Positions 4,201 through 40,886 of a stretch of 44,495 bases of DNA are shown one piece after another. The notes beneath the pieces were generated by a model. It had not been told where the DNA came from, ran no database searches, and worked only from the letters and a program-made list of their open reading frames with translations. Numbering within the stretch: the stretch's first letter is position 1; each line of letters begins with the position of its first letter. The position numbers and the translations under genes are program-made. Origin of the DNA: Chthoniobacterales bacterium (GTDB lineage Bacteria > Verrucomicrobiota > Verrucomicrobiia > Chthoniobacterales > JACTMZ01); contig JACSRX010000015.1 of assembly GCA_014879535.1 (NCBI GenBank), positions 1 to 44,495 on the forward strand, in the 5' to 3' direction.

Positions 4201-7200
4201 GCAGACCCCGCAGGGCGCGATCATGTTCCCGCAGAACAACGGCGACACCGTGGGCGGTTCGAGCTACGAGATGGTCGTCCGCACCGACCTGACCGTCGAG
4301 GAAGTCTGGTATCACATCACGGACACGGACAGCACCAACGACGATGCAGCCACCCGCCAGGTCAACGGCAACGGGGCGGGCTTCGAGCCCTTCACCGATT
4401 CGAACCAGAATGGCGTCCGCGACAGCAACGAACCGTTCACCGATGTCAATGGCAACGGCGTTTACGACACCACCTTGTCCCAAGGTTGGGCCAAGGCCGT
4501 CGAGGTCACCCCGAGTCCCTCCATCAGCAGCCCGCATCAGAAGGAATGGCGGCTGCGCTACAACAACATCCCGGCGACAGGCGCGGGCACGGTGACCATC
4601 CGGTTGCTGGAGGCCTCCTCGTCCCGCAACCTCACGCTGGATGCGGCTTCCGCCCATGTGACCGAGTTGAACAGGAATGTCGAGACGCGGGGTCCCGACG
4701 AGCGTGTCAACATCGCCTGGCCGCAGCACGACGGCGACCGCGTGGATGACAACTACGTGCTCAAGGTCTACTTCACCAAGGCGCTGGCCGACGGCACGAC
4801 CACCGAGAGCCTCAAGGAGCGGTTCACCTTCAGCATCGCCAGCACGCAGTCCGGGGAAAACACCGACCCCGTGATCCAGCCGCGCGACAACTTCGCCATC
4901 AGCTACAACATCAACGACCAGTTCCACGAGTTGGCCATCCCGCTGCCGAATCTCTACAACGACATTGCCGACTTCCTGCACACGTTGAAGGTTGTTTACC
5001 GGTTCCCCGACGGGCGCGAGCGCGAGGCGGTGCGCCTCGTCACGGCCAACCCGAGCACCAAGCCTTTTGTCCGCATCACGCGCCCGACGGAGCTGGGTTC
5101 CGACGGACGCCCCACCGAGATCATCCTGCCTGACGGCCCGGGCGCCGATGCCGCGGATTATGTGGTGCAGGTGGAGACCAGCACGAGCGTGACGAACGCC
5201 CCCGTTCTCACGGGAATCACCACAGCCGGGGCACCCTCGCAGAGCACCAGCGGCAACACCAAGACGTGGAGTTATCTCTGGAACATCACGGCGCCGGGCA
5301 ATTACTTCATCACCGCCGAAGCCAACCTCAACGGGCAAAGCACCACGACTGGACGCAACGCGCGCGTGGTCCTGCGGCAGGTCGTGGAATCGTCCGGCAG
5401 CGACGACGGGGACGACGACAATGACGGCCTGGTCAACATCGACGAGACAAACCAGCGACCGTTGCCCACGACCAATCCGGAGACCTGGAACAACGGTGAT
5501 GTTCACATTCACTATGCCACCGGACGCTCTCTCCCGGTCAGCCCGGACAGCGACGGCGACGGCCTGCCGGATGCCATGGAGGTCGGTTGGCGCACGGCCG
5601 GCTCCGCAACGGACATCGAGGCCGACACCAACGGGGACGGCTACCCGAACTTCATCGGCGATCTCGATCCGCCCCTCTACGCGGTCCTCGAGAACCACGG
5701 GTTCGTTCCCGGTGTCGGTTCTGCAAGCCAGGGGGACAGCCGCACCAGGCAGGCGGCCGGATCGGTGACCGATCCTTCGAGCCCGGACAGCGACGGCGAC
5801 GGTCTGCCCGACGGCGTCGAGGATGCCAACCGCAACGGATGGGTGGACGGGGACGGAAAGTCGCTGCCTCCCGATGCGACGCGCGAGCAATATGCCACCC
5901 ACAGGCCGAATGCCGGCGATTGGCCGAACAACATCATCGAGTCGTTCGAGGCTTGGCGCGAAACCACGCCGACCAAATCCGACAGCGATGGCGACGGTCT
6001 CAGCGACGGCTACGGCGAGGACAAGAACTTCAACGGACGCACGGACCTCTTCCTCAAGGCCGAGAACGGCACGCTCACCGAGTTGCTCCTCAGCGCCCCG
6101 GCCAATGCCGCATTCCGTGTCGGTGACGCGACCTCGCGTGCCGTCAATTATCCGGCGCTGTTGGCTGCCTACTCGCCGGGCGGGGGCGGAACCTCCCAGA
6201 CAGGCGGTTGGCCGAAGCTCCTCATCATCGAAACCGATCCGCTCAACACGGACACCGACGGCGACGGTCTGCCCGACGGGTGGGAGGTCAACCACGGCCT
6301 CGATCCCCTGGACAACGGCACCTACAACTTCCGCATCGGCGGAGCCGGCAATCCGGTCAACGGTGCCGACGGGGATCCCGACGGCGACGGCTTCACGAAC
6401 TCCCAGGAATTGGCCGCCGGAACGCACCCGAACCAAACCAACACCGGCGGTGGCGGTCCGGGCGAGGGTTCCATCAACATCGGGACCTTCATGGATTGGA
6501 ACCACAACGACATGCTTGTCCTCGACGAATACAACGAGGGCGGCAGCCAGGGGGCCGATGTTTACCGCACCAACGAGTATGACAACTCGCGTGACATCGT
6601 CGCCTTCTCGTTCCGCGACGGCGGCGAGGAGGATGGCCGGGTTTACTTCCGCATCGATTTCCTCGACCTCGCCCCGAATGCCTGGGAGGGGCAGGTCGAT
6701 GCCTACATCGTCATCGACACCGGCAACCCGGCGGTCGGCGAGCGCGCCCTGCCGAACGAGGTGGACATCGCGACCGACATGCGTTGGGAGGCTGTGGTGG
6801 CGGTTTACGGCCAGAATTTCGGATCGATCTTCGTCGACACCCAGCGTGCGAACAACACGACGACCCAGTTCCAGGCACCGGACGCCTCGTTCGGCATCAG
6901 CACCCGCAGCTTCGGCGGCCTCAGCCAGGCGGCATGGTCCAGCCGTTACGATGCGGTCGAGGTTTCGGTGGACCGCCAGCACCTGATCGATGCCGGGTGG
7001 CTCGGAGACCCGAACACGCTGAACTTCCAGGTGTTCACCACGATGCCCAACACGATCGGAGCCGGGTCCGGCAACATCTCCGGGCGCAACGACATCCGCG
7101 ACACGATCTACGACGACTGGCTGGCATCGGACTACTGGAAGGATCAGGACAACATCAGCCTCAACGGCAAGCTCTCCGGCTATTTCGGGCGCAACAGCTC

Positions 7201-38794: not shown

Positions 38795-39499
38795 ATGACC
38801 GGCCCAACGACAGCCAAGCACACGGTGCTCATCATCGAGGATGAGCCGGATGTCATCGACCTGCTCCGCCTCAACCTCGCCAAGGCCGGCTTCCGCGTCC
38901 TCGAGGCGCGCGATGGCTTGTCCGGCCTCGCCGTCGCCCGGGAGAAGCGCCCCGATGCCATCATCCTCGACCTCATGCTGCCCGAGATGCGCGGCGAGGA
39001 GGTCTGCCGGCAGCTCAAATCGCGCGGATCCACCGCGGCCATCCCCGTCATCATGCTCACCGCCAAGGCCCAGGCGTCCGAGCGCGTCGCCGGGCTCGAA
39101 CTCGGCGCCGACGACTATGTGGCCAAGCCCTTCAGTCCGCGGGAAATGGTGCTCCGCATCCAGGGAATCCTCCGCCGCCTCGAAACCTCGGCCTCCGACA
39201 GGCTTGCGGTCGGACCGTTCGAGATTGATCGCGGGAGCTTCGAGGTGCGGCTCGACGGCGCCAAGCTCGACCTCACCGTCATCGAGTTCAAGCTCCTCGT
39301 GATGCTGATGGAAAAGCGCGGCCGGGTTCTCAGCCGTGAGGATCTCCTGCGCGACGTCTGGGGTTATCACCGCCTCAGCAACAGCCGCACCGTGGACACC
39401 CACATGCGCCGCCTGCGCACCAAGCTCGGGGATCATGCCGCCCGCCTCGAGACCGTGCGCAGCCATGGCTACCGCTTCCGCGCCGGGCAGGAGGATTGA
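38795..39499 (+). CDS. OmpR/PhoB-type response regulator (orphan)
   Basis: The protein has 234 residues. The receiver domain has acidic pocket residues E15 and D16, phospho-acceptor D59 (IILDLMLPE), T89 and K111 (VAKPFSP), all intact. The C-terminal winged helix (FKLLVMLMEKRGRVLSREDLL, then RTVDTHMRRLRTKLGD and VRSHGYRF) is PhoB-like. No histidine kinase lies on either side: upstream is a divergent phosphoesterase and downstream is a 26-aa microprotein unit with its own promoter. Target genes are unknown; the adjacent unit is an obvious candidate, though a sigma-54 promoter would normally need an AAA+ activator, which this protein is not. Confidence 0.93.
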   Translation: MTGPTTAKHTVLIIEDEPDVIDLLRLNLAKAGFRVLEARDGLSGLAVAREKRPDAIILDLMLPEMRGEEVCRQLKSRGSTAAIPVIMLTAKAQASERVAGLELGADDYVAKPFSPREMVLRIQGILRRLETSASDRLAVGPFEIDRGSFEVRLDGAKLDLTVIEFKLLVMLMEKRGRVLSREDLLRDVWGYHRLSNSRTVDTHMRRLRTKLGDHAARLETVRSHGYRFRAGQED

Positions 39500-39516: not shown

Positions 39517-39533
39517 TTGGCACACCAAATGCT
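39517..39533 (+). promoter_or_regulatory. Candidate sigma-54 (-24/-12) promoter
   Basis: TTGGCACACCAAATGCT lies 17 nt after the regulator stop. The -24 box TGGCAC matches perfectly and the -12 box ATGC matches TTGC in three of four positions. The invariant GG (39519-39520) and GC (39531-39532) are separated by exactly 10 nt, as required. The start site would be near 39544. A small inverted repeat, GAACA (39552-39556) and TGTTC (39561-39565), lies in the predicted leader. Confidence 0.55.
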
Positions 39534-39583
39534 CCTCCGATCTTTCAACGGGAACACCGTTGTTCATCCCCGGAACACAACAG

Positions 39584-39593
39584 AAGGAGGTGA
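39584..39593 (+). promoter_or_regulatory. Near-perfect Shine-Dalgarno site
   Basis: AAGGAGGTGA is almost fully complementary to the 3' end of 16S rRNA. The GGAGG ends 7 nt before the ATG at 39598, the best spacing. Almost no other gene in this window has a recognisable Shine-Dalgarno, so this site stands out and decides the start of the microprotein. Confidence 0.85.
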
Positions 39594-39597
39594 ACTC

Positions 39598-39678
39598 ATG
39601 ATGACCGTGACAATCATCATCGCGTCCATGTCACTGGCCACAATGGTCGCCGGCTACATCGCGATGGTGAAAGTTTGA
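39598..39678 (+). CDS. 26-aa single-span membrane microprotein
   Basis: The frame begins MMTVTIIIASMSLATMVAGY and ends IAMVKV: one hydrophobic helix with a single Lys near the C-terminus and no other charge. Small size, a transmembrane helix and a very strong ribosome site resemble known bacterial membrane microproteins that bind and regulate larger membrane proteins, but I recognise no family. It is framed by a candidate sigma-54 promoter upstream and a strong terminator 48 nt after the stop, so it appears to be a one-gene transcript of about 210 nt. The weak net positive charge at the C-terminus suggests that end faces the cytoplasm. Function unknown. Confidence 0.65.
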   Translation: MMTVTIIIASMSLATMVAGYIAMVKV

Positions 39679-39725
39679 TCAATTGGTGGTGTTGAAGGCA
39701 AATGCCCCTGATTGGTCGATCTTCG

Positions 39726-39756
39726 GGAAGGCGGGAGAAATCCCGCCTTCCTTTTT
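39726..39756 (+). terminator. Strong Rho-independent terminator after the microprotein
   Basis: GGAAGGCGGGA (39726-39736) and TCCCGCCTTCC (39741-39751) form a perfect 11-bp stem capped by a GAAA tetraloop and followed by TTTTT (39752-39756). It is the best terminator in the window. Confidence 0.93.
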
Positions 39757-40035
39757 GTCGAACCATGCTTTGGTTGGAGTCAGGCGGAGGCGAACATTCC
39801 CCAAATCGCGCGTGAACCGGAGGGACAGGCTGCCCGAGTGCCGCCGGTCACTCTGGCAACGAAACGGCCTGCGAAGATTTTGATTGAACATGCGTTTGAA
39901 TGGATTCTAACTGTGGTTGAAATGAAGACGATGCGGCACCCACCCCCCGGCGCCGGCTCCGGGAGCTGGCTCACTGCCCAGAAAATCAAGAAAGGCTGCC
40001 TTACGGCGGCCTTTTTCATTATTGCGGAAGCGGAG
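39757..40035 (+). other. Non-coding stretch between terminator and frameshifted gene
   Basis: No credible gene is visible. Frames on both strands are short, lack start signals and match nothing I know. It contains a second terminator-like hairpin near its right end. In-frame ATGs at 39922 and 39931 could extend the following gene leftwards, through KKGCLTAAFFIIAEA, which looks like a weak signal peptide core. Confidence 0.4.
39991..40016 (+). terminator. Second terminator-like hairpin
   Basis: AAAGGCTGCC (39991-40000) pairs with GGCGGCCTTT (40005-40014), ten pairs with one G-U, around a TTAC loop, and is followed by TTTTT (40012-40016). It lies 20 nt before the ATG at 40036 of the frameshifted gene. 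Either it ends a transcript from the left, or it controls entry into that gene. Confidence 0.7.
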
Positions 40036-40886
40036 ATGATCGAGGGGAGCACGATCAACTACGCCTCCACGCTGAATCGCACGAATCTGACGAGTTCGGG
40101 CGAGGTGATGGGGGGGCCTTCAAGTTCGAGCTCGGAGTGTTCAAGCCCGGCTTCGTGCCGGCGGCGACCAACACCAGCCAGTGGCTGGCGAACTGGGTTC
40201 CGGCCCAGCGAGCCCCCTACAACACGACGAACAAGTGGTTCACCTCCAACTACACGGTGACGAACAACCCGCCGCCTTTCACGGTTGGAGCCGCCGGCTA
40301 TGTCTGGGGGTTCAGCGGCGGGGAGACGGCGGGGGAATGGATTTTGTTCCGGGCGACAAACTGGACGTGGCCTGCACCGAATCCGGAGAGTCCGATCGTG
40401 CTGTTTTGGACCGCAAGGAACGCGACGACCATCGTGCTGGGTGAAATCCAGACCTCGGGGGCGTTCCACATGAAGTCCGCCGCGGTGAGCGGTGCGCTGG
40501 CGCCCACGGTCACTTGGGACGAATGGCGGGTGACCGAACTGGCTGTCTCCGGGAACGGCACCCAGAAGGATCTGAACGCGAACGGGGTTCCGGATGTTCT
40601 GGATTATGCGCTGCACCGCGGGGCGAATCCCGATCCCGGGGCTTGGCTGGAGTGGTATGACACGGGCACGGAACGTTATCTGGAGTTGCGCATCCCGCGA
40701 AGGCGTGATCGTCAAGCCACGTTCCTCGTCGAGGTCTCGGATGATCTTGTGACTTGGGAGTCCGGCTCCTCGGTGACCGAGGTTGTCGAGGACACGGCGG
40801 AGGCCCTGGTTGTGCAGGACAGGACTCCGCTGGGTGAGGGCGGCGGCCGCCGGTTCATGCGGGTTCAAACCATCGTGGGAAATTGA
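40036..40886 (+). pseudogene. Secreted verrucomicrobial-type protein, interrupted by one-base frameshift in a G7 tract
   Basis: The first part, from MIEGSTINYAS to SSGEVMGG, is in one frame. From the G7 run onwards the frame shifts, and the second part reads AFKFELGVFKPGFVP, then GYVWGFSGGETAGEWILFRATNW, then AFHMKSAAVS, and ends RRFMRVQTIVGN. Both parts belong together: proteins of this verrucomicrobial type have the SSG-G-FxFELGVF and GEWILFR blocks in one chain. One extra G in the run would restore a frame of about 280 codons. The 3' part has a DLNANGVPDVLDYAL calcium-type motif. The true start may lie at 39922 with a weak signal peptide. Decay, phase variation or a sequence error are the options; see the findings. 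Confidence 0.7.
40110..40116 (+). repeat. G7 homopolymer at the frameshift point
   Basis: Seven consecutive G residues straddle the frame switch (ATG GGG GGG then CCT in the upstream frame; GCC TTC AAG in the downstream frame). Eight G would join the frames. Poly-G runs of this size are slippage-prone. Confidence 0.7.

Follow-up and report, generated by a model that had tools for sequence, protein, structure and literature searches.

A candidate stand-alone gene for a 26-residue predicted membrane microprotein in Verrucomicrobiota

Within the 44,495-nucleotide stretch of DNA analysed here (the window), positions 39517-39756 hold a compact unit of leader, Shine-Dalgarno (SD) sequence, 26-codon reading frame and two 3' hairpins, which is conserved as a block in two congeneric species and patchily distributed in the genus. 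We read it, with a probability of about 0.62, as a stand-alone gene, organized as a leader/SD/double-hairpin unit with its own short mRNA, whose 26-residue product would cross the inner membrane once and tune a membrane partner. The gene is well bounded and previously unnamed, and it comes from an uncultured freshwater group whose small proteins have been little studied; the freshwater origin of the genus is read from the isolate names. The range of the microprotein is narrow, covering a few sister species of one genus.

The unit, its relatives and its surroundings

The unit and its upstream neighbour are laid out in the window as follows.

38795-39499, + strand: PhoB-type response regulator gene, the upstream neighbour; not beside the homologues elsewhere
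39518-39533, + strand: sigma-54-like -24/-12 match, TGGCACACCAAATGCT; candidate only, unconserved
39562-39597, + strand: conserved 5' leader
39584-39593, + strand: SD, AAGGAGGTGA, with the ATG at 39598
39598-39678, + strand: ORF, MMTVTIIIASMSLATMVAGYIAMVKV, 26 codons, predicted single transmembrane segment
39672-39721 (approximate), + strand: stem-loop over the stop codon, filling the 3' UTR
39725-39757, + strand: intrinsic terminator, 11 perfect pairs and one G-U, GAAA loop, T5

The original prediction had named four signals in this stretch, a sigma-54-like match, an SD, a 26-codon ORF and a terminator, and all four are found where it placed them, with the ORF, the perfect SD and the 11-bp GAAA-loop terminator as it described them. 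The stem arms of the terminator are 39726-39736 and 39741-39751; no other perfect stem in the window both reaches 10 bp and carries a T tail, and first-order random windows yield 0.1 stems of at least 9 bp. The view that the stretch encodes a membrane microprotein in a self-contained unit is borne out by two congeneric homologues that lie in another context and by purifying selection on the frame.

These homologues, in the species G004 and G007, share 54% and 46% identity with the peptide encoded in the window, and their leader, SD, ORF, 3' region and terminator are all as in the window unit. Both follow uvrD rather than phoB, and linkage to phoB was therefore rejected; downstream they are followed by different genes, a PiT-family phosphate transporter (G004) and a convergent phosphofructokinase (G007). 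In the genome to which the window belongs, uvrD is on a different contig from the microprotein gene, and no such element is present in the sequence just after it. The same layout at a different locus therefore indicates a discrete unit whose neighbours have changed. Its edges are sharp: identity is down to 0.26-0.39 immediately before the leader and to 0.19-0.45 beyond the terminator. As a separate observation, the sequence directly after the own-genome uvrD (locus L123, ~6950-7160, G000:C95) contains GGAGGCGACGGGAGTCGAACCCGTGTCC, which resembles an opposite-strand tmRNA 3' end.

The gene is accessory, patchily distributed and decayed in one sister species. The original prediction had counted relatives lacking the ORF against the gene, and such relatives do exist: seven of the ten congeneric Verrucomicrobiota MAGs compared (completeness 65-100%, so a few copies may be hidden) gave no significant match, and an eighth, G010, is broken, with a remnant after uvrD that retains the 3' hairpin, the terminator and the latter half of the ORF but has lost the SD and start. 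The ORF is nevertheless intact in G004 and G007, and it is the absence from seven congeners together with the G010 remnant that makes the gene accessory. In G002, the flanks of the G010 remnant locus match on both sides and nothing of the unit lies between them. Beyond the genus, a protein profile and an RNA model found no homologue in 213 genomes of the order, and the same holds for 388 genomes of the phylum and for IMG/VR viral contigs, plasmids and phages. The order-level matches with E of 0.003-0.05 were rejected, as those read were unrelated sequence without the SD-ORF-terminator layout. The best reading is that the microprotein is lineage-restricted among the genomes, viral contigs and plasmids searched.

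The reading frame and the RNA around it

The substitution pattern identifies the product as a protein under purifying selection. In three pairwise comparisons, dS is 0.60-1.66 while dN is 0.16-0.42, with dN/dS at about 0.2-0.3, and Fisher tests of substituted versus unsubstituted sites give p values of 0.005, 0.013 and 0.035; all three point in the same direction, and they rest on few changes because only three intact sequences are available, with small counts and comparisons that are not independent. Nonsynonymous changes are thus held down in the relatives, as the original prediction had anticipated for a real gene, and the frame has no indels across the three homologues. Each of the three products has one hydrophobic segment (19-residue Kyte-Doolittle means of 2.06-2.29, with 2.06 for the window peptide), from which membrane insertion is predicted. 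Neither the peptide nor the unit matches any Pfam, NCBIfam or Rfam family above threshold, in line with the original prediction, which recognised no described family for it.

The RNA is also strongly structured. The whole unit folds better than its dinucleotide shuffles in the three homologues (z of -5.2, -5.3 and -3.9), and the stem-loop between the ORF end and the terminator, which the original prediction had missed, has z of -3.7 to -6.6 in the three homologues and -4.7 in the G010 remnant. Across the two 3' hairpins in these four sequences, 95.4% of cells stay paired and four pairs change on both sides, a number matched by 18 of 500 shuffles; this lends modest covariation support to the stem-loop and the terminator hairpin. 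Part of the strong fold may represent ordinary 3'-end protection.

Between G004 and G007 the leader differs at only one of 43 columns, compared with 16 of 78 in the ORF and 36 of 57 upstream, and this near-identity indicates that the leader is under its own constraint. It is predicted to pair with the SD region through GUUCAUC (39562-39568) and GGUGAAC (39589-39595), and in all three homologues GUUCAYC could form this pairing with GGUGAAC. Regulated SD occlusion was rejected as a proven feature because this pairing does not go beyond shuffles: the real leaders leave the SD at least as accessible as shuffled ones do, and 6-23% of the shuffled leaders also form a 7-bp leader:SD helix.

The Shine-Dalgarno sequence and a genus-wide lipoprotein gene

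The SD is the sole zero-mismatch match in the window, and the exact pattern AAGGAGGTGA-N2-7-ATG occurs once only in the 3.17-Mb own genome (G000, 97 contigs). As reversed-pattern controls give 0-3 matches per genome, this uniqueness alone is little proof; the proof is conservation, and the exact SD is kept in both homologues. In the 11 genus genomes, exact AAGGAGGTGA precedes an ATG 13 times, at three microprotein genes, seven genes for a 37-aa lipoprotein and three other frames. A search of GTDB contigs for the exact SD-ATG pattern returned the two known homologues and four unrelated matches.

The 37-aa lipoprotein, MNIVKIIAIVAVAAASLSLGACASKPKPAPVSASYSK, is encoded in all 11 genus genomes (loci L125-L135).

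G004:C62:32683-32793, G000:C64:13437-13547 and nine further genomes: 37-aa lipoprotein gene

In four genomes its SD is inexact, and the three leaders read, including that of the own genome, each carry AAGGGGGTGA. Like the microprotein gene, the lipoprotein gene has a near-identical SD (AGAAGGAGGTGAA), encodes a tiny envelope protein and ends in two hairpins followed by a U-run; unlike the microprotein, the lipoprotein has a lipobox and is present in every genome of the genus. Common ancestry of the two was rejected, since BLASTP gives no alignment. The SD and the compact, hairpin-ended transcript that both genes share therefore look like a recurrent design among small envelope-protein genes in this lineage, and the perfect SD, as a marker of such genes, offers a practical handle for finding others. 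We also noticed that a motif near GATTTTCGTTGTCC recurs ~45-60 nt upstream of the lipoprotein SD.

Possible roles and alternative explanations

In the reading that we prefer, transcription would begin at a promoter just upstream, with sigma-54 possible in the window species only, and would produce an mRNA of ~200 nt closed by two stacked hairpins, the second of which would be the intrinsic terminator. Translation would start from the near-perfect SD behind the constrained leader and would probably be good, and the 26-residue product is expected to insert in the inner membrane. By analogy, it most probably works as a small membrane protein on some partner in the membrane, which its size and topology suggest it might tune in the way of MgtS or AcrZ. 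AcrZ is a small single-pass regulator of a transporter. MgtS is a small membrane protein of 31 aa that acts on PitA and MgtA (PMC10710835). The microprotein resembles regulators of this type in size class, in its one hydrophobic segment and in having its own short mRNA; the likeness is one of size and topology, and no Pfam or NCBIfam family matches above the cut-off. The neighbours, phoB in the window, the PiT transporter in G004 and phosphofructokinase in G007, agree on no partner. The PiT transporter, which lies next downstream of the G004 homologue, is a further likeness to these regulators, but as a lead it is confined to that single genome, because neither the window nor G007 has such a transporter beside the gene.

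How the gene is switched on bears on the original proposal of a sigma-54-controlled microprotein gene turned on by an AAA+ activator. The candidate element (TGGCAC-N5-ATGCT) agrees with the consensus at 10 of 11 letters, has exact GG-N10-GC spacing and predicts a start ~54 nt before the ATG, and RpoN is indeed encoded in the own genome (PF04552 at 188.6 bits), as had been suggested for checking, and in nine of the ten congeners. However, the single match of such quality in the window compares with 1.1 expected by chance at the same composition, and no comparable -24/-12 element lies within ~500 bases upstream of either homologue, where the best sigma-54-like sites have 7-8 of 11 letters, mostly lack the GG/GC and are far upstream or inside uvrD. 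The sigma-54 promoter thus stands at chance level, and the proposal as a whole appears unlikely to us; sigma-54 control in the window species is possible. The promoter region is unconserved even between G004 and G007, and the best upstream sigma-70 alternative reaches at most 8 of 12.

A different role would be that of a type I toxin-like peptide, which would harm its own membrane and be easily lost, and which a structured leader together with an RNA antitoxin would silence. Published membrane type I toxins are shorter than 60 aa, and RBS-sequestering leaders occur in some of them (PMC8309996); such toxins are known from Proteobacteria, Firmicutes and Tenericutes and, by one report, from Cyanobacteria (PMC12390103). 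The unit resembles ZorO, Ibs, ShoB and Fst in its short hydrophobic peptide, its stable structured mRNA, the possible SD-pairing leader predicted in all three homologues and its patchiness, with relocation and decay, and its leader is more constrained than its protein. It differs from them in that the SD pairing is no tighter than in shuffled leaders, that no family matches and that no RNA antitoxin was found: the minus-strand scan gave no antisense promoter better than shuffles, and the own genome holds no sequence plausibly complementary to the leader. The gene is, moreover, single-copy and tolerates C-terminal charge changes, and we consider a toxin-like function doubtful. Somewhat more doubtful still is the proposal that the unit is a compact leader-SD-ORF-double-hairpin cassette, shifting place and decaying between sister species, for a membrane peptide of a new kind, either type I toxin-like or riboregulated in some other way; if true, it would place such a cassette in a phylum for which the papers cited here list none. 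The strong fold, a leader more conserved than the ORF, and the 3' hairpin and terminator retained in the G010 remnant without SD or start would also suit an element that is chiefly a small RNA of leader and two hairpins, with an incidental peptide. This is improbable, given that the perfect SD and start are kept in all three homologues, that nonsynonymous changes are held down in an indel-free ORF and that no Rfam family matches. Chance alignment of signals in the intergenic stretch after phoB would account for the sigma-54 part, but the remaining parts have been conserved as a set at another genomic location, which makes this explanation scarcely credible.

Two minor observations concern the DNA downstream of the unit. 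A frame opening near 39923 seems to run on in a different frame past a seven-G run (ATGGGGGGGCC) at window positions 40105-40140, which has the look of a frameshifted surface-protein gene; either a misassembly or a slippery tract could be the cause. Inside this putative frame, at 39989-40016 and ~240 bases past the terminator, lies another hairpin and its T run (AAGGCTGCCTTACGGCGGCCTTTTTC).
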